A stretch of DNA of 64,000 nt, from positions 62,138,955 to 62,202,954 of the forward strand of contig CM055101.1 in assembly GCA_029204225.1 (NCBI GenBank), written 5' to 3'. Below the pieces are notes generated by a model. That model worked only from the letters and a program-made list of their open reading frames with translations. It was not told the origin of the DNA and made no database searches. The stretch's first letter is position 1, and each line of letters starts with the position of its first letter. Of this stretch, positions 16,961 to 41,747 are shown in pieces. The translations under genes and the position numbers were made by a program. The stretch is from Diphasiastrum complanatum (Eukaryota; Streptophyta; Lycopodiopsida; Lycopodiales; Lycopodiaceae).

Positions 16961-17111
16961 ATACTGATACACATTTTAGCATCATGTACAGTGGCATCAG
17001 ATGAGATGTATATATTTTCTTACAGTCTATTTGTGTCATGGCTAATTTATCGTGGTTGCTTACAAATGGTTAGCTCTGTGAAGTTTGAATGGTTAGTCAA
17101 AAATGGTTTGC

Positions 17112-17458
<347 letters not shown>

Positions 17459-17749
17459 AGCACATCTGCATCTCATTCAAAACATATGCATCATGTTCAA
17501 CCATTTAACATAAGACCCTAAACCTGACACCCCAACAAATGGCAGATTTAACACAACACCCCAAACCCTAACAAATCACCCTAAACCCACAACCCTACAG
17601 CCATAACCATCAAAACAAGCCACAAGCATAATCATCATCCATAAACATCATCAACCCCACCTACGTCCTCATTGTGTCGTAGGCATTGCACCACGGGTAT
17701 GTGCAGATTCAACATCAAAGCTGCACTTTCGCAGCATACACTTAAACCT

Positions 17750-17942
17750 GCGTAGAATGTATCAATGGTCCAGGAATACAGTCCATTGGTTCGTGGAGCG
17801 GGTATGTACTCAGGGGACCGAGCCTGGCCCGATTCGGGCATCGTCCGGTCAAAATGGCCGTTCGACGGGTTAGAAACGCAATTAGGTCAATCCAAATCGA
17901 CTAGTTCTGCAGCTATCCGTCTGACGGTCCCGTTTCTCCAAG
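17750..17942. repeat. Direct repeat unit, first copy
   Basis: Matches 18328-18537 with many substitutions. Shared blocks include ggtccaggaatacagtcca, gattcgggnatcgtncggtc and gtctgacggnccc. The two copies flank the ORF2 relic at 18019-18258. No function is recognised. In the minus sense the second copy lies inside an open frame of about 155 codons. Confidence 0.65.
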
Positions 17943-18018
17943 CACTACAGGGAGTGAATGGTCACCAGTGGAGTGGATGGTCATCATAACTGTGTCGTTC
18001 ACTACCGGGAACCAGAAG

Positions 18019-18258
18019 ACCTACTGGCTGGCCCGACGACGAGGGACCCTGGCCCGGACCATGGGAAGTTGTTCTGCGGTGAAGTTAATTCCAATCCGTT
18101 GCATTTCCTCGCCCACGCCAACTCGGTCAGGGGGGAGCAGGTCCGAGGACTGTGAGGGCACGTAGCTGCAGCTCCGGTAGTCGCCCCATTATCTCTCGCT
18201 GGCTCTCGTGAAATCCTCCTTCTAGCTTCCGTTCGTTGTGTCGGCGGACATCTACCAG
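18019..18258 (-). pseudogene. ORF2 relic next to the divergent transposase
   Basis: The minus strand contains RIGINFTAEQLPMVRARV followed by RRRASQ, aligning with EQIGMNFTRRQLIMVRERAARRRANQ-type sequence of the young copies. Further on is VRRHNER, matching the N-terminal RRHNER block. Frames between these blocks are broken. It is convergent to the transposase gene at 13639-16960, as in every other copy, so the pairing predates the split of the two subfamilies. Confidence 0.7.
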
Positions 18259-18292: not shown

Positions 18293-18314
18293 CCCTAAAC
18301 CCTAAACCCTAAAT
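18293..18314. repeat. Short telomere-like tract (CCCTAAA)n
   Basis: Three units of CCCTAAA, the plant-type telomere repeat, at an interstitial position. Degenerate versions (ccctaaac) also occur around 17515-17590. Confidence 0.75.
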
Positions 18315-19650: not shown

Positions 19651-19652
<2 letters not shown>

Positions 19653-20461
19653 TAGATCCAGCAGTACCAGGATCCGCGGATCCCGGTACCGCGGATCCAT
19701 ACTGATCCGCGGTACCATAATATATAATATATTTTTTTTAATATTTATTTTAATTTTTAAAAAAAATAAAATAAAATCAAGTGGGCAATATGGGTATCAG
19801 CTTGAAGCTATTGACGAGAGTAGTGCATTTATACAGGTTGCTAGTTCTGAAGAGAGCGAATAGCCAAAGGACCAAGGGGATGCAAAACACCAAAAAGTGT
19901 GTTTTTGCTCAGGGAGTCAAACCCCAAATCATGAAGAGGTCGTACCGTCGGGCGGGGCTCTGCCCCCCAAACCCACTGTCGGGGGGCTACTGCCCCCCGG
20001 ACCCCCTGTTTCTCGGGGTCCTACCGCCCCCCGAACCCCCCAAGACTTGTTGCTATATAGAAACTGTAATCTAGCCATCTCATAACCATCATGGTCTCAC
20101 AGTAGACCCTATACTAACAACCGTGCTCAGTAATGGCTTCTCCTCATAACGGGGGCCTTACAGATCTGAGCTCACGGTTAACTAGTGACTACTAAACTGA
20201 GAGGTGCATTATTTAGTTGTCTAACACAATTTGTAGCTGAAAGCACCGACAACCTGCATAAATGCACTGCTCTCGTCAAGAGCTTCAAGCTGATACCCAT
20301 ATTGCCCACTAAATTTTAAAAAAAAAAATTAATTTTTTAAAAAAAAAAAAGAATTAAAAATGGTGCCGCCTTGGTACCGCGAATTTTTGGGCGGCACCAT
20401 AATGGCGGTACCACCATTATGGTACCGCGGTACCATAATGGCGGTACCACGTGCCACTATG
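19651..20461 (+). mobile_element. Nonautonomous GGTACC element interrupted by another element
   Basis: Left end CATAGATCCAGCAGTACC at 19651 after a (TA)n tract. Right end ...gtgccaCTATG at 20457-20461, followed by a short AT stretch. The left array (19651-19727) mixes GATCC with GGTACC words. The right array spans about 20358-20461. The interior AT-rich DNA is split by the 531-bp inverted-repeat element at 19780-20310, leaving about 280 bp of its own sequence. It has no coding capacity. Confidence 0.6.
19780..20310. mobile_element. 531-bp element with ~58-bp terminal inverted repeats
   Basis: The left end agtgggcaatatgggtatca... is matched by the inverted right end over about 58 bases with a few mismatches. 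The interior holds G/C-rich palindromic words (ggggggctactgccccc, ctaccgccccccg) and no gene. The target duplication is unclear because the flanks are A-rich. The same terminus (tgggcaatatgggtatcag) closes the duplicated flanks at 11394 and 47790. Confidence 0.75.
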
Positions 20462-21059
20462 AAATATATATATTTCATAGTACCCTCTGGTACCGCTGGT
20501 ATGGTACCGCCGGTACGGTACCGCCCTCGGATCCGCGGTACCAGGGCGGTACCATTTTTAATATTTTTTTTAATCTTTTAATATATTTTTAGTAATTTTT
20601 TTTGCATATTAACTACCAAAAAAGGACAAAAAAAAGTAAAAAAGGGAGTTCTGGGTGTAAAAAAAGAGGGTACAGTACATGATGCAGGGGACTGTTGCAG
20701 TGGCACATGGGCACTGCGAGTGAGCAGACCGAGGGGCCAATGGGAGACCAACACAGGGGGGTAGCATCACATGGGGGCAAGTACAGAGGCACATGGGCAT
20801 TGTGGGTGAGCAGACCATGGGCCCAATGGGAGACCAACACAGGGGGGAGCATCACATGGGGGTAGGTACAGAGGCACATGGAGGGATGATGGGGATCCAC
20901 ATGGCCGATCAGGCTGTGGGGATAAATAGGCACTCACAATGCCATTGTGGTTGCCATTTTCAGAGGCTGTGAGAGGGCTGGTGATAGACAGTGAGAGAGC
21001 AAGCGAGAGCCGGTGACAGGCTGTGAGAGGCTGTTTGAGAGCCAGGGTGCTGTGAGAGG

Positions 21060-21449
21060 GTGTTCAAGGACCAGGGTGCTGTGAGGAGAAGGTCGATCGA
21101 GATGGCAGAGCGCATACCACCGAAGCCCGAGGGCGAAGCCAGGAGGAAGCTTGAGGAAGATATCCGAAGGCACAACGAGAGGCATCGGAAGCAAGAGGCA
21201 GATATGACTCGACAGAGAAATCCGGAACCAGAGCCACCCGCCCCCGCTGTGGATCCTGTCCCCGCTGTCGAGCTGGATCTGGATGAGCAGATCGGAATGA
21301 ATTTCACACGACGGCAGCTCATCATGGTCAGGGAAAGGGCGGCCAGACGTCGGGCTAACCAGGAGGCAGCTCGGGCTAACTGGGAGGAAGAGCAAGAGCG
21401 ACAAAACAATGCACCAGACGAGGGCGAGGAGTCGGTGGAGGATCAGTGA
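21060..21449 (+). CDS. ORF2 of copy 2, short in-frame deletion
   Basis: A 129-codon frame, convergent to the transposase of copy 2. It matches the 135-codon ORF2 of copy 3 except for six residues missing after EAD and a few substitutions (for example NWEEEQ for NREAEQ). The in-frame loss keeps the frame open. The region upstream (20640-20990) carries two units of an 85-bp repeat and a TATA-like ATAAATAGG near 20923-20931. Function unknown. Confidence 0.6.
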   Translation: MFKDQGAVRRRSIEMAERIPPKPEGEARRKLEEDIRRHNERHRKQEADMTRQRNPEPEPPAPAVDPVPAVELDLDEQIGMNFTRRQLIMVRERAARRRANQEAARANWEEEQERQNNAPDEGEESVEDQ

Positions 21450-21981
21450 GGGATGTTTAGAATAGATGAGGTCCAGCCGTATGTGGCGGACTATTGCTAT
21501 GTAGTTTTCGGCAGTTTATGGTGCAGCAAATAACTAGATGGCTGCTTAAAAAAATGACAGTATATGTGATGTTATCCTGATACAACGGTTGAATATATAC
21601 ATAGTTGTTTTTTGTGCAACGCGAGCCTGGTCATGTAAGATGCAATGTCTGTAATTTTTTTAAATGCAGATGTATTACATGTGTTTATGAAATGTCATTT
21701 GGGGTGTAGGGGTGATTGCTGTGCTCATGATGTAGGTGCATATATGTGAAGCTAGCATTCACTTCAAACGAAATTAAATGAAAATAGGATTCAGACACGC
21801 ACATAGAATTCTTCGACATAAAATAAAGCATCACATGTACAGAGCGACATACGCACAATGTGCAACAAATAATGTAGGCCAAACACTGTATATAATGTGA
21901 AAAATCATCTGAGTACAATGGTAGACCGTCTGCTAGAGACAAACTACTGAAACTAAAACAACAGAGCCACAATCAATGCTC

Positions 21982-24717
21982 TGGCTCTGACTCAGACGAA
22001 TGCTCTGGAGACAACTCAGGGCCCCGAGCTGACTCTCGCAGCCGATATCTCTGCCTGTCTGGAACTGGCATGGGCTGTGTATCCGAGGGGGAAGACTCGT
22101 CATCCTCATCCTCCCAATCAGCCTCCGCATCAGCCCCCAAGCAGGCCAAACAACACCTGCTCCAACTGGCTGTGATACTGCACCTCTACCTGTACCTGGA
22201 GCCCTGCGTGGTCGTCCTCTCCTCCCTGGCAGTTTCTGTGCCTTGACTTTCTTGTTCGGTGCACCCTTGGGCCTGCCTGGTCTCTTGCGGACAAGAGGAG
22301 CTGTCAATGCCTCGTCACCCCCATGCAAATCACCTGGCTGGCTAGGTTGGGCCCAAGCTGAGGCCGGCTGGGATAGGGAAGCAAAAGAGGGAACTCCCTG
22401 TGCAACTGAGCGAGGAGGATGAGCTCGTGAAGTGTGTGCTCGTGGGGCTGCTGCAGGTGGAGGAACTGGCTGTGCAGGAGGCGAGTACAGTGGCGATATG
22501 TACTGAAAGGGGCGCTGTGGTGGCCGGTACTGGTACATCCTGGGTGTTGCCAAAGGAGGAGGATGTGACGTGGGTGCTGCCACTGGAGGAGCCACTGTGG
22601 ATGTGGGTGCTGCAAGAGAAAACCTGGGCACAGATGGTGGCTTGCCATGGAGACCTGGTGCTGCAGAAGTGGACGGCGATGGAGGGGCTGCAGGCCTAAA
22701 TGGCATCGGTGGCACTGGAGGAGCTGTGCGACGCACATACACCCTCTGAGGAGCTGGAGGAACTGTAGGCACCTCATGCGGCTGCTCTGGCTGGGACTCT
22801 GTGTATGGCATGCTGGCAAGAGATGATGGGGGCGCCCTGACACTCGGCATCTGCTCGGCCTCTGAATCCAATGTGGCAACCAAGTCGGCCAGCTGGGCAT
22901 CCGAATACAAATGCTTTGGGCTCTGGGACTCATCCTGTGCACCAGCCTCTAAATCATCCTGTGCACCAACCTCTGAATCATCCTGTGCACCAACCCCTGA
23001 ATCAACCCAAGCCTCATCCCGTGCCTCATCATGTGCACCCTGTAGACTCTGCATGGCCTCCCAATCTGTGCAATGAAAGTCATCAGGTGCCTCCTCTGGT
23101 GTGCTGTCGTAGTAACGGCCATGACTCTGTGCTGCACGCATCCAAACATCTGCGGGACCGGCATCCAAACCACTCTGCCCTCTATCAAGAGCCTCCTCCA
23201 TCATGTCGACATAGGTAGGTATGCCATTGCCCCCCCCTGTGTGCCCTGCCTGTCTGCCGGTTTAACCTGTGCCATGTGTCCCACCTCTGCCACGTGATGC
23301 ACCTGTGACCCTTGCCCGTGGCGTGTGCCCTGCACCTGTATAATCTCGGCCTCTAGCAGTACACCCATCTGAATGCAGTTCGTGGCATTGTCCGTCACCA
23401 CCGTGACGACATGCTGTGGGCCTATGGCTAGGATGGAAGACCTGATGACATCAAACATGAACTCTGCAGATATGACTCTCCCCCCCCGCTGCAATCCACT
23501 GCCCTCAAAAACTGTGTGCCCATGCAGCTGGAGACCAGTATGTTGAGGATCGGCCTCCTCCTGACATCAGTCCAGCCATCGGACATGATGCTGCAACCGT
23601 AAGTGGCCCAGTGCCGACGCAGAGGCTCCATCTCTCTAGACAAGGACTCGACCCTATCCCTCAGCATGTGTGTGCGGACAACCTCTGAACTAGGGACTCT
23701 CCAGCTAGGGCTGACAGACTGTGCAAGGCGGAAGGCCCTTTTGAAGGGCTCAGAGTCAATGATGGCAAAGGGCAGGTTCAGCTCGTAAACCAGACTGGCC
23801 ACGGCCTGTGTGGCCTCTCTGTCCATGTGCGGCTGATGCGCGCCGCGAATGGTCTACTGCACGAGGGCTCTCCCTGGTGGGCGACGGGTGGTGGACCTCC
23901 AGCACGGCGCACCAACCGTGACGAGAATGGACGATGACGCGACAGGGTGGGCGCTGGTGGATGCATCGGCTGTAGACGTGGAATGGGGAGAGTGGGATGC
24001 ACTGGCAGGGATGGGTGCAGCAGCATAGGTGGGGTGCACTGTTGGAGGGGCAACATCTGGCATGGGGTACGAAAACTGCTGGCTGAGGAGGTCATCCAGA
24101 TGGGAAGGCAAGGAAGAAGGGATCTCTTCCACATCCTCGAAGGCCAGCCCAGTACCATCCTGGGCTTGCTCGGGTGGCGGAGAGTCCATGAGAAAGTCGT
24201 AGACTGGTGGAGTGCGAGCAACAATGGGTGGTGGTGGAACCGCAGTGGCAACTGTCGGACGCGATGGGACGGGATCCACCGGAATCTGAGCAGATGGGGG
24301 TGCGTGAGGCAGAATTGTCTGAGGGGCAAAGGGACCGGAGGAGGATGCACTCCCTCTCCTCGTGCGTGCCAGCCAAGCAGGCAGCAACTCTGGGTTAGTC
24401 ACATAAGGAGCGGTGCAAAATCGGAGAACGCCCTCCGAAATGGTGTTCTCCCCTGCCACGAGCCGCGGCCCGTAGGTGTCCAGTAGTCGCTGCCTGTCGG
24501 GGACGGTCATGCTGCCACAAGGGGCAGCATTCAAGGTGGCACCATTTTTGGCGCATGCACCGAGCATATGGCCTTTAAGGCGAGTGAGGGATGCAGCAAA
24601 CTCGACGAGACAGTATCGGCAGCGCATGATCTTCTGACCGGTCTCGTTGGCCTTGTCGGCAACCCGCCTGACAATGTCTACCTCGTCCCACAGACCGGAA
24701 AGGTCGGATTGCACCAT
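21982..24717 (-). pseudogene. hAT-like transposase, copy 2
   Basis: ATG at 24717 (minus). The first 287 codons are open, then CAG has become TAG (stop near 23856). The frame continues through the DUF659-like segment to a run of eight G (copy 3 has seven) near 23485, which shifts the frame. After VVTDNATN the sequence jumps at about 23341 to the exon 4 tail, so the rest of the core and the hAT C-terminal domain are missing. The tail keeps its Pro-rich and AT-hook region but has a further small deletion near 22155. Confidence 0.8.
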
Positions 24718-25037
24718 TGCAGATGAAATGAGGGATGGATTGCTGGAAAAAAAACAGCAGGGTTCACTGTTGGAGAGACACTGAAAATGGGCGAATGCAG
24801 GGCAAAGGAAATCAGATGCAAGGCAGGGCGTTGCGTGGGCGATGGGCGACGCAAGGAATCAAAGGCAGGCAAGAAAAACCAGCAGCGATGGCAGGGCGGA
24901 GAGGGCGCAAAAAAATTTCAGAGGAAATGCGAGGGGGGCGGGTAGGTTTAGGTAAAAAAAATTTAAAAAAATATCAAATAATAAAAATATTATTTTATTG
25001 TGGTACCGCGGTACCATCATGGTACCACAATAAATAT

Positions 25038-25222: not shown

Positions 25223-25224
<2 letters not shown>

Positions 25225-25310
25225 TAGGTCCCGCGGTACTGGGTACCGCGGATCCCGGTACCGCGGGACCGTACTGGTACCGCGGTACCATGATGGTACC
25301 GCGGTACCAT
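25223..25310 (+). repeat. Left subterminal GGTACC array of copy 3
   Basis: Starts CATAGGTCCCGCGGTACTGG and holds at least six GGTACC or GTACCGCGG words in 88 bases. It probably binds the transposase, by analogy with subterminal repeats of other hAT elements. Confidence 0.75.
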
Positions 25311-25608
25311 AATATATTAATATAATTAATATTTAATATTTTTTGAAATTTTTTTAAACCTAATCTACCCGCCCCCCTCGCTTCTTCTCTCCCAATTTTT
25401 TTCCAGCCATCGTTGCCCTGTCTTCGCTACTGGTTTTGCTGCCCTGTCTTCCTTGCCTTGCGTCTGATTTGCGTCGCCCTTCGCCCACAGACCGCCCTGC
25501 CTTGCATCTGATTTGCAAGAACCTGCCTTCGCCCATTTTCAGCGTCTCTCACATAGTGTACCCTGCTGTTTTTTTTCCAGCGTTTTGTCCTTAGTTTTCT
25601 CCATCGCA

Positions 25609-28600
25609 ATGGTGCAATCCGACCTTTCCGGTCTGTGGGACGAGGTAGACATTGTCAGGCGGGTTGCCGACAAGGCCAACAAGACCGGTCAGAAGATCGT
25701 GCGCTGCCGATACTGTCTCGTCGAGTTTGCTGCATCCCTCACTCGCCTTAAAGGCCATCTGCTCGGTGCACGCGCCAAAAATGGTGCCACCTTGAATGCT
25801 GCCCCTTGTGGCAGCATGACCGTCCCCGACAGGCAGCGACTATTGGACACCTACGGGCCGCGGCTCGTGGCAGGGGAGAACACCATTTCGGAGGGCGTTC
25901 TCCGATTTTGCACCGCTCCTTATGTGACTAACCCAGAGTTGCTGCCTGCTTGGCTGGCACGCACGAGGAGAGGGAGTGCATCCTCCTCTGGTCCCTTTGC
26001 CCCTCAGACAGCTCTGCCTCATGCACCCCCATCTGCTCAGATTCCGGTGGATCCCGTCCCATCGCGTCCGACAGTTGCCACTGCGGTTCCACCACCACCC
26101 ACCGTTGCTCGCACTCCACCAGTCTACGACTTTCTCATGGACTCTCCGCCACCCGAGCAGGCCCAGGATGGTACTGGGCGGGCCTTCGAGGATGTGGAAG
26201 AGATCCCTTCTTCCTTCCCTTCCCATCCGGATGACCTCCTCAGCCAGCAGTTTTCGTACCCCATGCCAGATGTTGCCCCTCCACCAGTGCACCCCACCTA
26301 TGCTGCTGCACCCATCCCTGCCAGTGCATCCCACTCTCCCCATTCCACGTCTACAGCCGATGCATCCACCAGCGCCCAGCCTGTCGCGTCATCGTCCATT
26401 CCCGTCACGGTTGGTGCACCGTGCTGGAGGTCCACCACCCGTCGTCCACCAGGGAGAGCCCTCGTGCAGCAGACCATTCGCGGCGCGCATCAGCCGCACA
26501 TGGACAGAGAGGCCACACAGGCCGTGGCCAGTCTGGTTTACGAGCTGAACCTGCCCTTTGCCATCACCGACTCTGAGCCCTTCAGAAGGGCCTTCCGCCT
26601 TGCACAGTCTGTCAGCCCTAGCTGGAGAGTCCCTAGTTCAGAGGTTGTCCGCACACACATGCTGAGGGATAGGGTCGAGTCCTTGTCTAGAGAGATGGAG
26701 CCTCTGCGTCGGCACTGGGCCACTTACGGTTGCAGCATCATGTCCGATGGCTGGACTGATGTCAGGAGGAGGCCGATCCTCAACATACTGGTCTCCAGCT
26801 GCATGGGCACACAGTTTTTGAGGGCAGTGGATTGCAGCAGGGGGGGGAGAGTCATATCTGCAGAGTTCATGTTTGATGTCATCAGGTCTTCCATCCTAGC
26901 CATAGGCCCACAGCATGTCGTCACGGTGGTGACGGACAATGCCACGAACTGCATTCAGATGGGTGTACTGCTAGAGGCCGAGTTCCCTCATATTGTTCAT
27001 ACCCCCTGTGCAGCCCACGGCATAGACCTTTTGATGGGGGACATTGGAGCACTTCCCTGGGTTAGAGCCATCGTCCGGGAGGCCCTCTTCCTGGTGACTT
27101 TTGTCACCAGAAAGAGGCGTGTTCTTGCCATGTTTCGGGTGTTTAGCCATCTGGACCTCCGTAAGCCAGCCCCCACGCGCTTTGCATTCGACTTGGTGGT
27201 CATCGACCGTTTGATCAGGTGCAGGGCCCAGCTTCTACAGATGGTTGCCAGTGATCTTTGGGGTGCCAGTACATTTCCGCACACTGAGGATGGGGAGCAC
27301 TTTTCTTCCACGGTGAGGGGAGACCAGTTCTGGAGGGATGCACAGACATTGTCAGGACTGCTTCGACCACTCTACATTGTGCTCCGCATGGCTGACAGCG
27401 AGGGGTCGACACTTGGACTGGTGTATGAGCTCATGGACCGGATTGGACAGTTCCTGCAGCTGCCCATCTTGCAGCCAGAGAGGTAAGCGGTACAGTGTTG
27501 CAATTGACCTTTATCTTTTCAGTACTTGCTAGTTTGTTTTTCTGTCAATGTTAAGCTTTTTCGTAATGCCCTAAACCACATGCCCCTCACCTGCAGGATG
27601 ACAGAGCTGAAGTTCATATGGGAGACGCGATGGAACTACTTCCACAGGAGTATCCACAGCGTTGCACACATGCTGCATCCCCTCTTCCTCTCTCCGACAC
27701 AGATCGCAGACAGGGAGCTCGAGGCCGATTGGCTTCAGTACATTCACAGGGTGGGTCCACACATAGGTTTGGATCCTATCAGGCTCATGGAGGAGCTCGC
27801 TGCATTTCGTTTCGGCATGGGCACATTCGGCCACCCGGCTGCCCAGGATCCAGAGAGGAGGCAGCTACCCATTACCTGGTGGACCATGTTCGGTAGCACA
27901 TACCCATCTATACAGCGTCTTGCACTGCGTGTCCTTTCTCAGGTATGCATCTCATTTTATCCTCCATTTTTTGTGTTTCGTTGAAGTTTCACCTTTGCCA
28001 CAATGTGCTGAAGTATTTCAATGCACGCACCACAGGACTGTGCTGCCTCTGTGTGTGAGCGTAATTGGAGCACATGGGCACTGATTCACACGAGGAGAAG
28101 AAACCGGTTGTCAGTGAGTCAGTTGGAGCGGTTGGTGTTCTGTAGCACCAACGCACGTCTCGCCAGGAGGCTTCCGACCATTACGAGCGCATTGCAGGTG
28201 ATAAGCTAATCTTTCATAGCATGTTGGTTGACTCCTGTATGTTGGTTTCATTTCTTGATAAAGTTGTCTCTCTGACATGCAAATTTTAAACCTTGCAGAC
28301 GAAGATATCCGATTTGGAGCGCCAGGTTGACTTGCCTACGGACAGCACCCATCCCATGCCTGCAGATGACCTGGGCACACAGTTGATGGCAGAGAGAGAG
28401 AGGGAGCTTGCCGAGATGAGAGAGAGAGAGCTTGGGCTTGAGCACAGAGAGCCCCCATTGTATGAGGCAGATGAGCCAGTGTCAGAGGATGAGCATGATG
28501 AGGATGAGCCCATTCGGGTTGTGTTTGCCAGACCAGAGAGGGATGAGGCAGATTATACAGGTGCAGGGCACACGCCACGGGCAGGGGTCACAGGTGCATC

Positions 28601-29927
28601 ACGTGGCAGAGGTGGGACACATGGCACAGGTTATACCGGCAGACAGGCAGGGCACACAGGGGGGGGCAGTGGCATACCTACCTATGTCGACATGATGGAG
28701 GAGGCTCTTGATAGAGGGCAGAGTGGTTTAGATGCTGGTCCCGCAGATGTTTGGATGCGTGCAGCACAGAGTCATGGCCGTTACTACGACAGCACACCAG
28801 AGGAGGCACCTGATGACTTTCATTGCACAGATTGGGAGGCCATGCAGGGTCTACAGGGTGCACATGATGAGGCACGGGATGAGGCTTGGGTTGATTCAGG
28901 GGTTGGTGCACAGGATGATTCAGAGGTCGGTGCACAGGATGATTTAGAGGCTGGTGCACAGGATGAGTCCCAGAGCCCAGAGCATTTGTATTCGGATGCC
29001 CAGCTGGCCGACTTGGTTGCCACATTGGATTCAGAGGCCCAGCAGATGCCGAGTGTCAGGGCGCCCCCATCATCTCTTGCCAGCATGCCACACACAGAGT
29101 CCCAGCCAGAGCAGCCGCATGAGGTGCCTACAGTTCCTCCAGCTCCTCAGAGGGTGTATGTGCGTCGCACAGCTCCTCCAGTGCCACCGATGCCATTTAG
29201 GCCTGCATCCCCTCCATCGCCGTCCACTTCTGCAGCACCAGGTCTCCATGGCAGGCCACCATCTGTGCCCAGGTTTTCTCTTGCAGCGCCCACATCCACA
29301 GTGGCTCCTCCAGTGGCAGCACCCACGTCACATCCTCCTCCTTTGGCAGCACCCAGGATGTACCAGTACCGGCCACCACAGCGCCCCTTTCAGTACATAT
29401 CGCCACTGTACTCGCCTCCTGCACAGCCAGTTCCTCCACCTGCAGCAGCCCCACGGGCACACACTCCACGAGCTCATCCTCCTCGCTCAGTTGCACAGGG
29501 AGTTCCCTCTTTTGCTTCCCTATCCCAGCCGGCCTCAGCTTGGGCCCAGCCTAGCCAGCCAGGTGATTTGCATGGGGGTGACGAGGCATTGACAGCTCCT
29601 CTTGTCCGCAAGAGACCAGGCAGGCCCAAGGGTGCACCGAACAAGAAAGGCAAGGCACAGAAACTGCCAGGGAGGAGAGGACGACCACGCAGGGCTCCAG
29701 GTACAGGTAGAGGTGCAGTATCACAGCCAGTTGGAGCAGGTGTTGTTGGTTTGGCCTGCTTGGGGGCTGATGCGGAGGCTGATTGGGAGGATGAGGATGA
29801 CGAGTCTTCCCCCTCGGATACACAGCCCATGCCAGTTCCAGACAGGCAGAGATATCGGCTGCGAGAGTCAGCTCGGGGCCCTGAGTTGTCTCCAGAGCAT
29901 TCGTCTGAGTCAGAGCCAGAGCATTGA
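25609..29927 (+). CDS. hAT-like transposase with AT-hook tail (4 exons, intact)
   Basis: Exons 25609-27482, 27597-27942, 28036-28197 and 28299-29927 join in frame to about 1,336 codons; introns are GT..AG and 93-114 bp. The ATG (MVQSDLSGLWDEV) is shared by copies 1, 2 and 4. Domains: BED-like finger (CRYC...KGH, residues about 38-60), Pro-rich linker to about 270, DUF659/RNase-H-like core with MSDGWTD (near 380) and VVTDNATN (near 443) carrying the likely catalytic Asp residues, and hAT C-terminal dimerisation motif (CERNWSTWALIHTRRRNRL) in exon 3. The last 540 residues hold a charged helix, an acidic stretch, a Pro-rich region and AT-hooks (RKRPGRPKG, GRRGRPRR). Predicted role: excision and insertion of its own element and of short relatives. 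Expression is not known. Confidence 0.85.
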
Positions 29928-30450
29928 TTGTGGCTCTATTGTTTTAGTTTCAGTAGTTTGTCTCTAGCAGTCGGTCTACCATTGTACTCAGATGATTTTT
30001 CACATTATATACAGTGTTTGGCCTACATTATTTGCTGCACATTGTGCGTATGTCGCTCTGTACATGTGATGCTTTATTTTATGTTGAAGAATTCTATGTG
30101 CGTGTGTGAATCCTATTTTCATTTAATTTCGTTTGAAGTGAATGCTAGCTTCATATATATGCACCTACATCATGAGCACAACAATCACCCCTACACCCCA
30201 AACGACATTGAATAAACACATGTAATACATCTGCATTTAAAAAAATTACAAACATTGCATCTTACATGACCAGGCTCGCGTTGCACAAAAAACAACTATG
30301 TATATATTCAACCGTTGTATCAGGATAACATCACATATACTGTCATTTTTTTAAGCAGCCATCTAGTTATTTGCTGCACCATAAACTGCCGAAAACTACA
30401 TAGCAACAGTCCGCCACATACGGCTGGACCTCATCTATTCTAAACATCCC

Positions 30451-30858
30451 TCACTGATCCTCCACCGACTCCTCGCCCTCGTCTGGTGCATTGTTTTGTC
30501 GCTCTTGCTCTGCCTCCCGGTTAGCCCGAGCTGCCTCCTGGTTAGCCCGACGTCTGGCCGCCCTTTCCCTGACCATGATGAGCTGCCGTCGTGTGAAATT
30601 CATTCCGATCTGCTCATCCAGATCCAGCTCGACAGCGGGGACAGGATCCACAGCGGGGGCGGGTGGCTCCGGTTCCGGATTTCTCTGTCGAGTCTGTCGC
30701 AGCATCTCTCGGATATCTGCCTCTTGCTTCCGATGCCTCTCGTTGTGCCTTCGGATATCTTCCTCAAGCTTTCTCCTGGCTTCGCCCTCGGGCTTCGGTG
30801 GTATTCGCTCAGCCATCTCGATCGACCTTCTCCTCACAGCACCCTGATCCTTGAACAC
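30451..30858 (-). CDS. ORF2 of copy 3, unrecognised accessory protein
   Basis: A 135-codon frame convergent to the transposase, separated from it by about 520 bp. N-terminal half: strongly charged helix ([20 protein letters not shown]). Middle: PEPEPPAPAVDPVPAVE linker. C-terminal half: DLDEQIGMNFTRRQLIMVRE, then a basic/Ala-rich helix and an acidic end (GEESVEDQ). No membrane segment or signal peptide is visible. I do not recognise the family. Intact or nearly intact frames in copies 1, 2, 3, 4 and 5, and relics beside diverged elements, suggest it is a real gene of the transposon. A DNA-binding or transposase-partner role is a guess based on basic residues and context. Confidence 0.75.
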   Translation of the reverse strand: MFKDQGAVRRRSIEMAERIPPKPEGEARRKLEEDIRRHNERHRKQEADIREMLRQTRQRNPEPEPPAPAVDPVPAVELDLDEQIGMNFTRRQLIMVRERAARRRANQEAARANREAEQERQNNAPDEGEESVEDQ

Positions 30859-30987
30859 CCTCTCACAGCACCCTGGCTCTCAAACAGCCTCTCACAGCCT
30901 GTCACCGGCTCTCGCTTGCTCTCTCACTGTCTATCACTAGCCCTCTCACAGCCTCTGAAAATGCCGACCACAATGGCATTGTGAGTG

Positions 30988-30996
30988 CCTATTTAT
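30988..30996 (-). promoter_or_regulatory. TATA-like box of ORF2, copy 3
   Basis: ATAAATAGG on the minus strand, about 130 bases upstream of the first ATG of ORF2. The same or a one-base variant (ATAAATAAG) stands at the equivalent place in the other copies. Between it and the ATG lies a leader with repeated gtgagagg words. Confidence 0.5.
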
Positions 30997-31037
30997 CCCC
31001 ACAGCCTGATCGGCCATGTGGATCCCCATCATCCCTC

Positions 31038-31250
31038 CATGTGCCTCCGTACCTGCCCCCATGTGATGCTCCCCCCTGTGTTGGTCTCCCATTGGGCCCA
31101 TGGTCTGCTCACCCACAATGCCCATGTGCCTCTGTACTTGCCCCCATGTGATGCTACCCCCCTGTGTTGGTCTCCCATTGGCCCCTCGGTCTGCTCACTC
31201 GCAGTGCCCACGTGCCATTGCAACAGTCCCCTGCATCATGTACTGTACCC
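31038..31250. repeat. 85-bp tandem repeat upstream of ORF2
   Basis: Units begin with gtgcct(c/t)(c/t)gtac at 31041 and 31126, with a partial third from 31212. Each contains a ccatgtgatgct block and a tctcccattggncc block. Copies 1 and 5 carry one unit plus a partial, and copies 2 and 3 two. Copy 4 (31600-31960) carries several, some altered. Confidence 0.75.
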
Positions 31251-31361
31251 TCTTTTTTTACACCCAGAACCCCCTCTTTTTACTTTTTTTTGTCCTTTTT
31301 TGGTAGTTAATATGCAAAAAAAAATTACTAAAAATATATTAAAAAATAAAAAAATATTAAA

Positions 31362-31465
31362 AATGGTACCGCCCTGGTACCGCGGATCCCAGGGTGGTAC
31401 CGTACCGGCGGTACCACTGATATGGTACCGGCGGTACCATACCAGCGGTACCAGAGGGTACTATG
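31362..31465 (+). repeat. Right subterminal GGTACC array of copy 3
   Basis: Contains ggtaccgccctggtaccgcgg, a ggatccc core and four further GGTACC words, ending gggtaCTATG. It is followed by a (TA)n tract of about 26 bases. Confidence 0.8.
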
Positions 31466-32109
31466 ATCTATATATATATATATATATATATTCTAATTTT
31501 TTTTATAATTTTTTTTTGCATATTAACTACCAAAAAAGGACAAAAAAAAGTAAAAAAAAAGGGGTTCTGGGTGTAAAAAAAGAGGGTACAGTACATGATG
31601 CAGGGGACTGGTGCAGTGGCACATGGGCATTGCGGGTGAGCAGACCGAGGGGCCAATGGGAGACCAACACAGGGGGTTAGCATCACATGGGGGCAAGTAC
31701 AGAAGCACATGGGCACTGTGGGTGAGTAGACCATGGGTCCAATGTGAGACCAACACAGGGGGGGAGCATCACATGGGGGCAGGTACAGAGGCACATGGGA
31801 CAAATCCGGACAGGTACACCGTCACATGGGCACTGTGGGGGAGCAGACCACGGACCCAATCGGAGTGCAGCATGTAGTACAGGTACATGGAGCAGGTACA
31901 TTGGCACATCACAATTAATGGGGACAGGTACAAGGGCACATGGAGGGATCATCAACAACTGCACATGGGGGAACAGGCTGTGGGGTTAAATAGGCACTCG
32001 TGAGGCTGTGAGAGCCAGTGAGAGGCTGTGAGAGAGAGGCTGTGAGAGTCATTGTGAGAGTTATTGTGAGAGCCACTGAGAGCCAGTTCGAGAAACAAGG
32101 TGTCGTGAG

Positions 32110-32475
32110 ATGGCAGAGCGCATACCACCAAGGCCTGAGGGCGAAGCCAGGAGGAAGCTCGAGGAAGATGTCCGAAGGCACAATGAAAGGCATCGGAAGC
32201 AAGAGGCAGACATTGCAGAGATGCTGCGACAAACTCAGGAGAGACACCCAGAGCTGCAGATCCCCGCCCCCGCTGTGGCCCCTGCTCCCGCTGTCGAGCT
32301 GGATCTGGATGAGCAGATCGGAATGAACTTCACACGACGGCAGCTCATCATGGTCAGGGAAAGGGCGGCCAGACGTCGGGCTGGCCAGGAGGCAGCTCGG
32401 GGTAACCGGGAGGCAGAGCGAGAGCGACATAACAATTCTCCTGACGAGGGCGAGGAGTCAGTGGAGGATCCATAG
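32110..32475 (+). CDS. ORF2 of copy 4, diverged but open
   Basis: A 121-codon frame from MAERIPPRPEGE to the acidic end. It lacks the upstream MFKDQ start of the other copies, because the corresponding codons are changed and frameshifted, so MAERI is the likely start here. It differs from copy 3 at many sites (for example TQERHPELQIPAPAV in the linker) yet stays open and keeps DEQIGMNFTRRQLIMVRERA unchanged, which suggests past selection. It is convergent to the copy 4 transposase fragment. Confidence 0.6.
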   Translation: MAERIPPRPEGEARRKLEEDVRRHNERHRKQEADIAEMLRQTQERHPELQIPAPAVAPAPAVELDLDEQIGMNFTRRQLIMVRERAARRRAGQEAARGNREAERERHNNSPDEGEESVEDP

Positions 32476-32922
32476 GAATGTTTAGCATAGATGGGGTCTA
32501 GCCGTATGTGGCTGACTGTTGTTATGTAATGTTCATCAGTAGATGAGGCAGCATTTAGTGTCTAGCATAGTGTAAAAAACAGCCCCAGTCGTATGTGGTG
32601 GGAATACGTATTGTTATTTTCATACATCTGATGAATTATTGTACGGTGTGTTTTTTGTGCAATGCGTGCCTTGTGTATTGCAATCTGATGTATGTGTTTA
32701 TGAAATGCTATCAGGGGGTATTTCTATGTTCTGCATATGCTCTCGATCTCTGTAGTGAAAACTAATTGAAAACACGCACACACCATTTAAAGTAAAACTG
32801 CAAGTAGAACATCACAATTACAAGTTGACAAATACAGATTGTGCAGTGAATAGAATACGTCCAACACTGAATATAATATGTAAAATGGTCTGAATACAGT
32901 GTTCGACCATCTGGTCACCATT

Positions 32923-33201
32923 CTTATGGATGGGGTGGATAATGTTAGTGCACTAGGAGGATGGGAAACCAGAAACAACTGCGGACTTAAGAAGGGTGGC
33001 TATAGTGGGGGCGAGTATGTCGGAGGCATGGGAAAGGAGTTCAGATTCAAGGTCTTCGATATCTCTGGCCTTATGGGATTTCATCTTCTTAATGGCTGTG
33101 AGTACCATGTCAGATGTGAAGGAGAACTCAGATGGCCTTGGAGATATGGAAATAGGTGAGTCGGTAGGGACCGTGTATAGGCTAGTAGCATAGTCAGTCC
33201 A
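32923..33201 (-). pseudogene. LINE-type reverse transcriptase fragment
   Basis: The minus strand reads VLTAIKKMKSHKARDIEDLE...LLSHASDILAPTIATLLK, then a stop, then NIIHPIHK. This fits the N-terminal RT region of plant non-LTR elements (AIKKMK..KAxGxDxL, later GxFPxxW....PIHK). One in-frame stop is present in the FP..W block. Only this segment is found; no endonuclease or YxDD part is nearby. Confidence 0.55.
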
Positions 33202-33206
33202 TATGC

Positions 33207-33435
33207 AGTTATGATCAAAATCTCAGGTGTTGAATCAATGAAGCATAAAAGACAGCAATAGACTAAAGCCCTACAAGCAATAGACAAGACAATAGGTTCT
33301 CCCACGAAGAGCCCAAGCAATACCAATCAATAATCTGAAAAATGAGTGTACAAATTCCCCTATAAATACCCTACCAATGAACCCTAAAATAGGAATTCAA
33401 AAGTAAAGGGAGGCAAAATGTGGAGGGAAAATAGT
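33207..33435 (-). mobile_element. Truncated LTR of the element C family
   Basis: Starts AGTTATGATCAAAATCTCAGG and matches 56562-56780, the LTR of element C, nearly perfectly apart from an extra block (aataccaatc) near 33320. It ends at agggaaaatagt, about half-way through the LTR, exactly where transposase copy 4 begins. Confidence 0.75.
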
Positions 33436-34931
33436 CACCAGGAAGAGGGCCTCCCGGACGATGGCTCTAACCAAAGGAAGTGCTCCAATGTCCCCCATCA
33501 GAAGGTCTATGCTGTGCGCTGCAGAGGGGGCATGAACAATATGAGGGAACTCGGCCTGTAGCAGTACACCCATCTGAATGCAATTCGTGGCATTGTCCGT
33601 CACCACCGTGACGACATGCTGTGGGCCTATGGCTAGGATGGAAGACCTGATGACATCAAACATGAACCCTGTAGATATGACTCTCCCCCCCCGCTGCAAT
33701 CCACTGCCCTCAAAAACTGTGTGCCCATGCAACTGGAGACTAGTATGTTGAGGATCGGCCTCCTCCTGACATCAGTCCAGCCATCGGACATGATGCTGCA
33801 ACCGTAAGTGGCCCAGTGCCGACGCAGAGGCTCCATCTCTCTAGACAAGGACTCAACCCTATCCCTCAGCATGTGTGTGCGGACAACCTCTGAACTAGGG
33901 ACTCTCCAGCTAGGGCTGACAGATTGTGCAAGGCGGAAGGCCTTTCTGAAGGGCTCAGAGTCGATGATGGCAAAGGGCAGGTTCAGCTCGTAAACCAGAC
34001 TGGCCACGGCCTGTGTGGCCTCTCTGTCCATGTGCGGCTGATGCGCGCCGCGAATGGTCTGCTGCACGAGGGCTCTCCCTGGTGGGCGACGGGTGGTGGA
34101 CCTCCAGCACGGCGCACCAACCGTGACGGGAATGGACGATGACGCGACAGGGTGGGCGCTGGTGGATGCATCGGCTATAGACGTGGAATGGGGAGAGTGG
34201 GATGCACTGGCAGGGATGGGTGCAGCAGCATAGGTGGGGTGCACTGGTGGAGGGGCAACATCTGGCATGGGGTACGAAAACTGTTGGCTGAGGAGGTCAT
34301 CCGGATGGGAAGGGAAGGAAGAAGGGATCTCTTCCACATCCTTGAAGGCCCCAGCAGTAGCATCCTGGGCTTGCTCGGGTGGCGGAGAGTCCATGAATAA
34401 GTCGTAGACTGGGGGAGTGCGAGCAACAGTGGGTGGTGGTGGAACCGCAGTGGCAACTGGCGGACGCGATGGGACGGGATCCACCGGAATCTGAGCAGAT
34501 GGGGGCGCGTGAGGCAGAACTGTCTGAGGGGGATGAGGGGCAAAGGGACTGGAGGAGGGTGCACTCCCTCTCCTCGTGCATGCCAGCCAAACGGGTAGCA
34601 ACTCTGGGTCAGCCACATAAGGAGCGGTGCAAAATCGGAGAATGCCCTCCGAAATGGTGTTCTCCCCTGCCACGAGCCGCGGCCCGTAGGTGTCCAGTAG
34701 TCGCTGCCTGTCGGGGACGGTCATGCTGCCACAAGGGGCAGCATTCAAGGTGGCACCATTTTTGGCGCGTGCACCGAGCAGATGGCCTTTAAGGCGAGTG
34801 AGGGATGCAGCAAACTCGACGAGACAGTATCGGCAGCACACGATCTTCTGACCGGTCTTGTTGGCCTTGTCGGCAACCCGCCCGACAATGTTTACCTCGT
34901 CCCACAGACCAGAAAGGTCGGATTGCACCAT
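33436..34931 (-). pseudogene. hAT-like transposase, copy 4 (5' part)
   Basis: ATG at 34931 (minus), MVQSDLSGLWDEV. The frame stays open through the finger (one Arg changed, giving CCRYC), the Pro-rich linker and MSDGWTD. A run of eight G near 33690 then shifts it. Sequence continues through VVTDNATN to EALFLVT and is cut at 33435. Upstream, the fusion with copy 5 at 35077 happens to extend the open frame by about 100 codons of antisense copy 5 sequence; this is not a real N-terminus. Confidence 0.8.
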
Positions 34932-35791
34932 TGCAGATGAAATGAGGGATGGATTGCTGGGAAAAAAACAGCAGGGTTCACTGTTGGAGAGACGCTGAAA
35001 ATGGGCGAAGGCAGGGCGAAGCAAGTTAGACGCAAGGCAGGGCAGTGCGTGGGCGAAGGGCGACGCAAGGAATCGAAGGATGTGGATGAGATCCCTTCTT
35101 CCTTCCCTTCCCATCCGGATGACCTCCTCAGCCAGCAGTTTTCGTACCCCATGCCAGATGTTGCCCCTCCACCAGTGCACCCCACCTATGCTGCTGCACC
35201 CATCCCTGCCAGTGCATCCCACTCTCCCCATTCCATGTCTACAGCCGATGCATCCACTAGTGCCCAGCCTGTCGCGTCATCGTCCATTCCCGTCACGGTT
35301 GGTGCACCGTGCTGGAGGTCCACCACCCGTCGCCCACCAGGTAGAGCCCTCGTGCAGCAGACCATTCGCAGCGCGCATCAGCCGCACATGGACAGAGAGG
35401 CCACACAGGCCGTGGCCAGTTTGATTTACGAGCTGGATCTACATTTTGCCATCACCGATTCTCAGCCCTTCAGAAGGGCATTCCGCCTTGCACAGTTTGT
35501 CAGCCCTAGCTGGAGAGTCCCTGGTTCAGAGGTTGTCCGCACACACATGCTGAGAGATAGGGTTGAATCCTTGTCTAGAGAGATGGAGCCTCTACGCCGC
35601 CACTAGGCCACATATGGATGCAGCATCATGTCTGATGGCAGGACTGATGTTAGGAGGAGGCCGATCCTCAACATCTTGGTCTCCAGCTACATGGGTACAC
35701 AGTTTTTGAGAGCCGTGGATTGCAGCAGGGGGGGGGGAGAGTCATATCTGCAGAGTTCATGTACGATGTCATTAGATCTTCCGTCTTGTCC

Positions 35792-35796
35792 ATAGG
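35792..35796 (+). repeat. Target site duplication of element A, left
   Basis: ATAGG directly before the 5' LTR. The same five bases follow the 3' LTR at 42106-42110. Uninterrupted copy 1 has ccataggccccc at this place. Confidence 0.95.
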
Positions 35797-36154
35797 TGTT
35801 ACGAGCTCGTAACCAGTGCCGAACCCTAGAGAACACAGATAGGTCAGATACCACAGTCAGGGTCGTGTCCAGCGTACATGACCAACAGGGCAAGACAGTG
35901 TGAGTAGTGTGCCCCAGCACGGTCCATAGCCATGGCGGGCCTAACACAGCCTAGGGACCCTGTCAGCAGGATAGGGCCCCCAGTTGGGTCCCGTCGTGCA
36001 GTCGGCCACGTCAGTGCCACGTGGCCGACACTTGGCAGTAGCATGCTACCAGTCCTCACACTGGGCTAGGAGGGGCTTACTCTATATCAGGGAGTAGGCA
36101 AGGTTGGGTGGATCAGTTAGTGTTTGCCCTACTGTGGTGTTAGGATCTATTACA
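35797..36154 (+). repeat. 5' LTR of element A
   Basis: Starts TGTTACGAGCTCGTAACC, itself an imperfect inverted repeat, and ends TATTACA. A TATA-like ctatatcag lies near 36081. Transcription should start within it. Confidence 0.95.
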
Positions 36155-36155
36155 C

Positions 36156-36168
36156 TGGTATCAGAGCC
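36156..36168 (+). other. Primer binding site of element A (tRNA-iMet)
   Basis: TGGTATCAGAGCC, one base after the 5' LTR. It is complementary to the 3' end of plant initiator-methionine tRNA, the usual primer of Ty3/gypsy elements. Confidence 0.9.
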
Positions 36169-36957
36169 ATCTCCATCCTAGGGAGTTTAGGACAGCAGTA
36201 GAGAAAGCTATCAGAAGATAGGAAGTGTTTCTCAGATTCTCAGAGAGGAATAGAGGAGGAGGATCGCTGTAGGAGCAGCCTTCAAACTTCTGATTTCCAC
36301 TGAGAAATCACAGTAGCAAGGAGTCAGATTCCAAGTGTAGGTAACTCGCTGAAAAAACAGCTGTTTCTCACTGACTTCAGAGGATTCTTCGTAGTTTTCC
36401 CAGCGAAATTAGAGTAGGAAGAAGCCAGCACCTCCATCGCTGTACAGTCAGAGACCTACATCCGATTTCCAGGGAAAAAGTTACTGGTTTTCAGCGAGTT
36501 GGAAGCCAAAAAAGAGGAGCAGGGCCAGCGCTGCCAGTGCTTCTGAAAATCTGGTTTTTCAACAAGTTTTTGGGCCCCAACGTCAGAGATTTGGAGCAAG
36601 AGGATTTCTACCAGATCAGCGAGTAGGAGACTTCTGAAATTTCAGAACTCAGAAGGGTTTTTGGACTTCAGATTGGCCTTTTTGTGGACAAGTTGGATTG
36701 CAATCAGACCAGCGAGCTACTATCCTCAAAAAACCGGGAAATTTAGTACCGTTTTGAAGCCTCAAACTGGCATTTTTCGGAACAGCAGGTCTGAAATTTT
36801 GGGGAAAAGAGCTGAAAGGGTTCCTCTTCATTCTTTCTTTGGAAGTACAGTCCTCAGAAACAGCTAAGTCATCTTTCCTTTCCCTTGTACAGTTGTAAAT
36901 TAGTCTTTTAGACTTTTTTCCTTCAGAAGTTAAGGTAGCTCTCTTTCAGTTTCGAAG
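36169..36957 (+). other. 5' leader of element A
   Basis: About 790 bases between primer site and gag start, without a long plus-strand frame. It would contain packaging signals, which cannot be placed from sequence alone. Confidence 0.6.
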
Positions 36958-39900
36958 ATGACCACTCCTCAGGGACCTGATCAACCCCAGGAGAGAGGCT
37001 TCGACGAACTTGAAACAGAAGCCTTGGCTTACAGAAAAGGGAAGGAACCCATGGAAGTAGAAGAACAGGAACAGTTCGCCGAAGAACTCGACGAACTAGT
37101 TACCAAGGAGCAGTTCCTCCAATTGGTAACAGAAGTGGATGAACTGAAGCTGGCATTAGCCAATTTCAAGTCCAGTGTGGACGACTCGTTCGCTGAACTC
37201 AAAAACTTGATTTTGAGCTCCGCGAAAGGAAGCCTTCCCTCCACTTCTCAGTTATCCCCTTCTCCACTTCCATCAGTTTCGGGTGAGACTTTACGGTCTC
37301 ACCCCAGTGTTTTTAAAGATTTAAAGCCTCCTACTTTTAATGGGGAAGAGAAGGATAGAAATGCAGATATTCTACAAACCTTCCTCAGCAAATGGAAGAA
37401 CATTCATGCTCTTAAACAGACCCCTGACCATTTGCAAGCAATTGAGGCCAGTCTTTCTTTAGGGCCTATGGCCTATAAGTGGTGGTTAAATCTCCAGGAG
37501 ACTGGGCAGACTCCCCGGTCATGGAAAGCTTTTGAAGAAGCTTTCCTAAGAGAATTTCTACCAGAGAATGAACTTGATAGAGCCTGGGAAGCCTGGGAAA
37601 GAACAGTAATGGACAAGTCCCTCATCCAATATATCTCGCAGTATCGAGAGGCAATTTTAAAGATTAAAAATATGGATGACTATCAAAAAATCAGGGGATT
37701 TGTCCGTGGCCTCAAAGATGAATATAAAGTAGAGGTCCAGAGAAACTCGCCTACTACCCTTGAGCAAGCTCTCAGATATGCTCAAATCTATGATGATTCA
37801 GTGGGTAGGAAGAGAGCGAGACAGCAACCACTTTCTGAGCAGCTTCCTCAGAAAGACTTTCAATTTAAAAAGAAATTTTTAAAAAAAAAGAAAGAAGATA
37901 AATTTAAAGGTGAAGCTCCTCAGAAACGCCCTTCACTCATACAGCCCTTAAAACCAGATGATTTTGAGAAAGCCAAACAGGAACGTTTGTGCTTTGTGTG
38001 TATGGGCAAGGGACACACAGTCAGACAGTGTCCCAAGGGGCCTTTCACTAAAAAAGATAAAAAACAAGTTCATCTTGTTCAGACTGTATGTTTCCCCAGT
38101 AACTCGGCAGCTTCCGAGATCAAAGTGTATCATGAAGATCATGAACACTGTTGCCAGCTGACCTCTGCAATGCTAGCGAGACCCTTCAGCTTTGGGCCGC
38201 ATGACCTAGTACGTATGCATGGGAAAGTTGGTAACCAGTCAGTAAGAGTCATGGTTGATGATGGGGCAACCCATAATTTCATCAACCACACCCTGGTTAA
38301 AAAGCTTAAACTACCAGAAGTACCTAGTCAGCATAGGTACATAGTTTCATTAGCTAAGGGTGAAGATAAAAAAATATGGGAAACTATGGTAAGTAAGTTA
38401 AATCTTGGTATTCAGGGGTACCAAGATCAAATAAACTTTCAGATAATGCACATGGATCGAACAGACATTGTTCTCGGGAGAGATTGGCTCTACAGTTTAG
38501 GACCTTCCCTCCACAGAAACTATCAGGAGAACACCCTCAGCTTTCAGTATAAAGGCCGAGAGATCCAGTTGCATGGGGAGCATGATGTTCCCAACAGCCC
38601 TATGGTCTGCAATTCAGAGCTCTGTCAGCTAATCGGAGACGAAGACCATCAGGTATTCTTATGTGACTTTCAGTTTATTCCTGAAGTTTCTATTTCCAGT
38701 TCTATTCAGCAGAAAATCAGTAAATTAGAAACTTTATTGTCTAAATTTAAAGATGTTTTTCTTGAAGATTTGCCACATGGTTTACCACCTAGCAGAGAGG
38801 TAGATCATGTAATAAACCTAGTACCAGGTACAGCACCTGTTTCTAAACCTCCGTATCGGGTCAGCCGAACAGAGGATGAAGAAATAACTAGGCAGTTAAC
38901 AGACTATCTTGGGAAAGGCCAAATTCAGACCAGTAGTTCACCATGGGCCTCACCAGTCCTATTGGTGAAAAAGATAGAGGGGTCTATGCGTCTTTGCGTA
39001 GATTACAGAGCCCTCAATAAAGTCACAATTAAGAATAAATACCCTATGCCTCGAGCAGACGAGTTGTTTGATCAACTCGACGGGGCTAAGTTTTTCAGCA
39101 AAATAGACCTCAGATCGGGATATCATGAAGTCCGTATAAAATCGGAAGATGTCTCGAAAACAGCTTTTAGGACTCGTCACGGTCATTATGAGTTTAAGGT
39201 GATGCCATTTGGGCTCACAAATGCTCCAGCTACCTTTATGACCTTGATGAACAGTGTCCTCAGACCATACTTGGGTAAGTTTGTAGTCGTATTTTTAGAT
39301 GACATCCTCGTCTACAGCAAAACGAGGAAGGAGCATCTAAAACACCTCAGAAAGGTGTTTCGACTGCTCAGAAAGCATAAGCTTTATGCTAAACAATCCA
39401 AGTGTGAATTCTTCGTTGAAGAAGTAGCATATTTGGGTCACATTATCTCTTCAGATGGGATTAAGATGGACCCAAATAAGGTTAAAGCCATACTCAGTTG
39501 GCTGAGACCTCAGAATATTTTGGAACTTCAAATCTTTCTTGGTCTGGCGGGATATTACAGACGATTTGTCAAGGAATATGCTCAGATAGCAGTCCCTATG
39601 ACAAATCTCCTTAAGGGGAAGGGAAAGGAGTTCATTTGGGAGTCCGCACAACAGGAGAGCTTTGATGCTCTCAAAACAGCCTTAGCTACAGCACCAGTTT
39701 TAAAGGTCGTCGACCCCAATCAGCCATTTGTGGTCGAAACAGATGCTAGCGACTTTGCAGTAGGTGCTGTGCTAACTCAGGGTGGACGACCAGTTGCGTT
39801 CGAGAGTAAAAAACTCGAGCCAGCACAGACTAGGTATAGTGCCTATGAAAAGGAACTCTTTTCTATAGTCCATGCCCTTAAGACTTGGAGGCATTATTTG

Positions 39901-41736: not shown

Positions 41737-41747
41737 GGGGGAGGGAG
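41735..41747 (+). other. Polypurine tract of element A
   Basis: AAGGGGGAGGGAG, directly before the 3' LTR and starting just inside the end of the polyprotein stop codon. It primes plus-strand synthesis. Confidence 0.9.

Follow-up and report, generated by a model that had tools for sequence, protein, structure and literature searches.

Two-gene DNA transposons and the hAT superfamily

Maize MuDR, as described in PMC3440606, is a DNA transposon with two convergently transcribed genes, mudrA for the transposase and mudrB, and the latter is apparently required for integration (PMC6446971). Elements of the hAT superfamily, in the account of a rice survey, typically code for one transposase, in contrast to Harbinger and CACTA elements, and have ends that begin with CA (PMC4423477); their terminal inverted repeats (TIRs) are given as 8-23 bp (PMC2528002). 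The element reported here, copy 3, lies at positions 25223-31465 of a 64,000-nucleotide stretch of the Diphasiastrum complanatum genome (assembly GCA_029204225.1, contig CM055101.1, positions 62,138,955 to 62,202,954 of the forward strand), hereafter called the window. Copy 3 is a hAT transposon with a DUF659 transposase gene and a second, selected gene that is convergent to it, termed open reading frame 2 (ORF2). The initial annotation of this DNA had read it as a hAT-like transposon that also bears a convergent protein gene outside known families, and the present analysis supports this. The reading preferred here, at a probability of roughly 0.7, is a two-gene hAT lineage with a MuDR-like layout, in which ORF2 would serve as an accessory protein.

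PIF/Harbinger and CACTA elements, which had been named as the two-gene precedents, stand as such, but MuDR with its convergent mudrA and mudrB is closer in layout (PMC3440606). The two differ in that MuDR has a Mutator-like element (MULE) transposase and TIRs of ~215 bp (PMC3440606), whereas copy 3 has a DUF659/hAT transposase and short CATAG ends. Plant DUF659-type hAT elements share the DUF659 core and the CERNW motif with copy 3, but the latter adds ORF2 and an extended C-terminal exon. The usual second protein of PIF/Harbinger elements is Myb-like. These elements and Pong are likewise two-gene cut-and-paste elements (PMC5543537, PMC2528002), but ORF2 has no Myb or other Pfam domain and the transposase belongs to another superfamily. 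VANDAL21 of Arabidopsis with its protein VANC is a possible analogue, in that its accessory protein is directed at repeats of the element itself (PMC5735166); VANDAL21 is of MULE type (PMC6446971), and the analogy drawn here is one of design. In the open-licence literature, no description of a two-gene hAT or of this element was found, Diphasiastrum transposons included, and the "second ORF" in the relevant parts of PMC2528002, PMC4423477, and PMC6446971 concerns PIF, Mutator, and MULE elements.

Structure of copy 3

The limits first assigned to copy 3 are exactly its two inverted CATAG ends. The left terminus, CATAGGTCCCGCGG, starts at 25223, and the right terminus, CATAGTACCCTCTGG on the minus strand, starts at 31465 in the opposite orientation. 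The left end (25223-25310, plus strand) comprises the terminus CATAGGTCCC and GGTACCGCGG subterminal repeats and adjoins an (AT)n run, and the right end (31361-31465, minus strand) comprises the terminus CATAGTACCC and GGTACCGC repeats, such that repeats of the GGTACCGC type are found inside both ends. With up to one mismatch, GGTACCGCGG has 63 matches in the whole window versus 1.3 expected by chance. Both genes of copy 3 lie between this one pair of ends, and the stop codon of ORF2 is 524 bp past that of the transposase on the opposite strand. An 86-bp tandem repeat of 2.1 copies (31037-31216) is located between ORF2 and the right end.

The transposase gene is intact, as had been reported, and its four exons are separated by GT..AG introns and join into an open frame of 1336 residues. 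Exon 1 (25609-27482, plus strand like the other three) encodes a BED-like N-terminus, recognized by eye, and the DUF659 domain (PF04937), which is matched with an expectation value (E) of 1.6e-40 and 138.7 bits against a cut-off of 34.7. Exon 2 (27597-27942) alone gives a sub-threshold match to the hAT dimerisation domain Dimer_Tnp_hAT (PF05699; E 0.0017, 18.6 bits against a cut-off of 21.4), and exon 3 (28036-28197) holds the CERNW motif. The motifs SDGWTD (379), TDNATNC (442), and CERNW (747) are presumably the sites of the hAT catalytic acidic residues, and CERNW is taken by us as a hAT motif. The Pfam search of exons 1, 2, and 4 gave no MULE transposase match; only DUF659 and Dimer_Tnp_hAT were found. 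The last exon (28299-29927) is a long, proline-rich, acidic extension without a Pfam match, in which the AT-hook-like motifs RKRPGRPKG and GRRGRPRR are seen by eye.

Seven transposase loci of the window belong to the same family as copy 3 (family 1), and among them copy 3 alone is intact. The ratio of nonsynonymous to synonymous substitution rates (dN/dS) of its transposase is 0.28, 0.28, and 0.24 against copies 1, 5, and 6, and the signal is weaker against copies 4 and 7 (0.45 and 0.46); against copy 2 the ratio is 0.65 and selection is not significant (p 0.21). In the transposase tree, copy 3 groups with P0002 and a diverged transposase from the same window (98/96), followed by a protein of the fern Ceratopteris (99/98) and then by the long-branched Arachis protein P0014. 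The relatives for this tree came from 7996 scored candidates, out of a larger number, all of which had to share short words.

In copies 1 and 3, the CATAG ends are oriented toward one another, and they conform to the short inverted repeats starting with CA that typify hAT elements, and not to the CACT(A/G) of CACTA elements. The end pattern gave 19 matches. Seven of these were discarded because GGTACC repeats do not follow them, and the other 12 were accepted as termini of family 1. Together with one terminus recognized by eye (19651), the family has 13 termini, at 5899, 10848, 12101, 12148, 12404, 12641, 19651, 20461, 20476, 25038, 25223, 31465, and 47259, with a truncated end near 51033 left uncounted. 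The 8 bases just outside the terminus are A or T only in 11 of these 13 cases, several of which share one AT run, compared with 2% of all 8-mers, a pattern suggestive of insertion into TA microsatellites. MuTAnT, Micron, and TAFT also insert beside or inside (TA)n runs (PMC4486113), but MuTAnT is a Mutator-like element and copy 3 is a hAT. The flanks of copy 1 (ATATATAT / ATATATAA) and copy 3 (ATATATAT / ATCTATAT) fit an 8-bp target site duplication, although they lie inside AT repeats and hence do not fix its length. A target duplication of TATATATA is on record for the hAT element hATm-3 (PMC8721813).

The ORF2 gene and its product

About ten ORF2 loci had been estimated for the window, and ten were counted (A-J), of which D belongs to copy 3. 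The frame of ORF2 D had been described as 135 codons (minus strand, 30451-30858). It is indeed open over this length, but the longer form has to start at GTG, and the first ATG gives 121 codons (30451-30816). This shorter form is preferred because of the GTG start and because the similarity between D and E, the ORF2 of copy 4, fades just before the ATG, which is the likely start. A TATA-like ATAAATA (30990-30996, minus strand) is located ~175 nt before the ATG; by eye from the alignments, it is the same in A, B, C, and G, and E has the variant TTAAATA.

The product of 121 residues is highly charged. AlphaFold predicts two long helices (residues 9-45 and 76-108) around a proline-rich linker, with a mean predicted local distance difference test (pLDDT) score of 73 and a predicted template modelling (pTM) score of 0.29. 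The second helix is arginine-rich and basic and holds the FTxxQLxMVRxR block. A Foldseek search of the model against PDB gave no match, a profile search of PDB gave none at E up to 1, and Pfam contains no family for ORF2 D, A, or E or for the database protein P0001 (at E up to 10 for P0001, A, and E). P0001, a hypothetical protein of Diphasiastrum complanatum with 87% identity to ORF2, is a named gene product and the sole close relative found among 5.8 billion proteins, with 237 candidates that shared short words being scored. A second relative, the database protein P0028 (E 1.5e-5), was obtained from 7995 scored candidates out of more and matches only Pet100 in Pfam (E 0.41, searched up to 10). 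In viral contigs, none of 27 pattern matches was confirmed.

Evidence that ORF2 evolves as a protein gene

The comparison of synonymous and nonsynonymous changes among the copies, which had been called for initially, reveals a synonymous excess. In 14 of the 15 pairs among the six open copies, the dN/dS of ORF2 is 0.18-0.40, and when the three separate pairs C-D, A-G, and E-F are pooled, it is 0.39 (p 1.7e-4). The excess extends to relics H and I of a second, older family, with a proportion of synonymous differences (pS) of 0.56 versus a proportion of nonsynonymous differences (pN) of 0.25 for D-H (p 2.8e-5), and p values of 2.1e-4, 7e-3, and 2.6e-4 for D-I, E-H, and E-I, respectively. Judged by these substitutions, ORF2 evolves as a protein gene.

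The alternative that ORF2 is not a protein gene, but a chance open frame in young GC-rich repeats or a stretch that functions at the DNA or RNA level, could draw on the antisense frames of 118-162 residues that overlap ORF2 in copy 3. When all six frames are compared, however, dN/dS is lowest in the ORF2 frame in each of the six pairs tested; antisense frame -0, open in four of six copies, has 0.8-1.6, and each of the remaining four frames is interrupted by stops in the copies examined. When 43 base changes, the number separating D and E, were placed at random, no stop arose in 17% of the simulations, so the mere absence of stops is weak evidence, but in none of 5000 sets was the number of amino-acid changes as low as between D and E. 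Between these most different copies, whose flanks are changed by 30-47%, ORF2 is a conserved island with 43 of 365 positions changed (12%), compared with 67 of 220 in the 3' flank (p 5e-8) and 80 of 171 in the 5' region (p 5e-18). The pair A-E has the same island pattern.

The FTxxQLxMVRxR block had been considered the best conserved part of ORF2. In a nine-row alignment, two rows of which are relics, T75, Q78, L79, M81, V82, R83, and R85 of the block are invariant, but so is RRHN (22-25), and F74 is not. The block has no edge in pN, which is 0.044 for residues 1-45 and 0.043 for residues 67-100 (three pairs). In these three pairs, residues 67-100 are conserved at synonymous sites as well (pS 0.04 versus 0.21-0.32 elsewhere), which would also agree with a function at the nucleotide level. 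Relic I, however, differs in this block at synonymous sites (by eye), and the local conservation is for that reason more likely due to recent gene conversion among the copies; constraint on the nucleotides is considered the less likely cause. Overall, an ORF2 that does not act through a protein is highly improbable. Between D and E (30451-30816 and 32110-32475), 4 of 102 sites in residues 67-100 are changed versus 39 of 263 elsewhere (p 0.003).

An older second family

A diverged transposase at 13.6-17.0 kb followed by a convergent ORF2 relic had been noted in the window, and both are present. The older-family locus at 12674-18252 (plus strand) has the left end CATGAGGGTCGGGGCC at 12674, the diverged transposase, and relic I at 18024-18252 (minus strand). 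Relic I is ~1.06 kb past the transposase; a GA repeat intervenes, and a 194-bp stretch is duplicated on both sides, for which reason relic I probably, though not demonstrably, belongs to one element with the transposase. When inverted repeats flanking the diverged transposase were sought, the arms were mostly telomere-like, GC-rich, or A/T-rich, and the end-motif search gave the left end at 12674 and no right end at that locus. Telomere-like TTTAGGG repeats flank the locus in inverted orientation (13552-13572 and 18293-18313).

Relic H (1936-2218, minus strand) has a frameshift and a stop, and no transposase was found between it and the window edge. Relic J (50697-51031, minus strand) consists of the 3' end of ORF2 only to ~50750 (by eye) and runs to the older-family right end CATGAGGGTCCGGGCC; the left end CATGAGGGTCGGGGCC is nearly repeated there in reverse, closing relic J at 51031. 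As J follows copy 6 across a junction of the two families at ~50289, it is chimeric.

Relics H and I match at 78% over 212 columns and share 54-60% amino-acid identity with family 1 over unbroken codons. P0028 is 58% identical to relic H over 53 residues. Between the two families, ORF2 is 46-52% identical, the transposases are 38-54% identical over matched pieces, and the 3' flanking DNA is homologous at 69% over 281 columns, mostly outside ORF2. P0002 joins the diverged transposase in the tree at 92/82, which is under the 95/80 mark, and one row of the tree is partly misread. The data suggest, without proving, that ORF2 and the transposase diverged together, and the relics make it likely that the two genes are paired in both element families.

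Proposed role of ORF2 and alternative explanations

In the preferred reading, the left end of the element would serve the expression of the DUF659 transposase, and a separate promoter at the right end would drive ORF2, the product of which would be an accessory protein of the element. Its charge indicates that it probably binds nucleic acid, through the basic second helix with the FTxxQLxMVRxR block, and pairing with itself or with the transposase is plausible on the same basis. ORF2 could bind the repeated ends of its own element while this transposes, or it could bind non-coding repeats and so resist silencing, as does VANC, which removes DNA methylation, in the Arabidopsis VANDAL elements. 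The targets of VANC often form tandem repeats of their own elements (PMC5735166), and both the 86-bp tandem repeat beside ORF2 and the abundance of GGTACCGC repeats would suit such an anti-silencing factor. Repeated subterminal sites of this kind, however, are also typical of transposase binding, and ORF2 has no Pfam match; moreover, mudrB, which has the closest layout, appears from PMC6446971 to be needed for integration. An anti-silencing factor is a tentative and rather doubtful variant, and a role in transposition or end binding, to which we would give about an even chance, is favored over it.

A further explanation is that ORF2 is a host gene or fragment that was picked up and is carried without a role. 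A host origin is often assumed for additional frames in MULEs (PMC6446971), very few relatives of ORF2 are known, and the young pair A-G is near neutral. On the other hand, two families with diverged transposases carry ORF2 with homologous 3' flanking DNA, so any capture must be old, and the synonymous excess reveals that ORF2 has been maintained. In the protein databases searched, no host homologue was met. Carriage without a role is thus improbable, if less so than a non-coding ORF2.

Several points weigh against an accessory protein gene. The A-G pair, which lies in a duplicated segment, has a dN/dS of 0.79, and antisense frame -1 is next lowest after ORF2 (0.41-0.68), with one stop in each of the six copies. 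Only the D-E and A-E comparisons present ORF2 as an island, and closer pairs do not; in A-D, 27 of 365 positions are changed in ORF2, 28 of 249 in the 3' flank (p 0.11), and 7 of 174 in the 5' leader. No transposase accompanies ORF2 B or H in the available sequence, and the pairings of I and J are doubtful. The copies are not independent of each other because of recombination, as seen in the mosaic copy 4 and the duplicated copies 1 and 5. A 25-codon upstream reading frame precedes ORF2, the AlphaFold model is weak as a fold at its pTM and has no structural match, and the proposed binding to nucleic acid draws on charge alone.

With these points taken into account, it is somewhat more probable than an even chance that the element represents a distinct, old two-gene hAT lineage of clubmosses, perhaps also of ferns, with a dedicated partner of a new family that was co-inherited with the DUF659 transposase since before the families split; the convergent MuDR-like design would then be independent in hAT elements. 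If a selected partner gene is indeed kept in one hAT lineage, the reasons for which some cut-and-paste transposons retain accessory proteins become open to study in another superfamily, with the intact copy 3 as starting material, and sense could be made of orphan proteins in plants, the hypothetical protein of Diphasiastrum among them.

Other copies in the window

ORF2 is open to its stop in six of the ten loci (A, C, D, E, F, and G), with F lacking a start and C having an in-frame 18-nt gap; B is cut, and H, I, and J are relics. One of the seven family-1 transposases is intact, but this contrast is weak by itself, since at ten times the length the transposase offers a larger target. In six of the ten loci, distributed over five elements, ORF2 has a transposase facing it within the same stretch; the convergent order noted for copies 1, 2, 4, and 5 is present there, though those transposases are broken. 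Wherever a right end is recognizable, ORF2 reads inward from it (six of six: A, B, C, D, G, and J), and it lies between both ends in copies 1 and 3.

Copy 1 (5899-10848, plus strand) has both ends, a broken transposase (6337-9540), and the open ORF2 A (9922-10287, minus strand). It is followed by a right-end fragment (11396-12101, plus strand) with ORF2 B (11396-11572, minus strand), which is cut at its 3' end, and no transposase. Copy 2 (20476-25030, minus strand) has a broken transposase, the open ORF2 C (21102-21449, plus strand), and an unrecognized left terminus. Copy 4 (approximately 31490-35000, minus strand), with transposase exon 1 at 34931-33430 and the open ORF2 E (32110-32475, plus strand), is a mosaic in which the transposase is close to that of copy 3 (synonymous rate dS 0.063) and ORF2 is distant (dS 0.33). 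Copy 5 (35001-47259, plus strand) has two ORF2 loci on the minus strand, F (45635-45991, start lost) and G (46334-46699). A right flank common to copies 1 and 5 (by eye) marks them as duplicated segments. The transposase of copy 5 is split by a Ty3-type retroelement, the coding frame of which (36958-41736) is an open polyprotein frame of 1592 residues with a chromodomain.

Smaller elements also occur. A miniature element of ~240 bp (12404-12641) has both family-1 ends and lies inside an AT repeat, and a short non-autonomous element with family-1 ends (19651-20461) has an inner part common to 11202-11302 and 47618-47718. Downstream of ORF2, a non-coding motif near CCGCCACATACGGCT is repeated at 9837-9905, 46240-46313, and 1794-1905, in both families (by eye).

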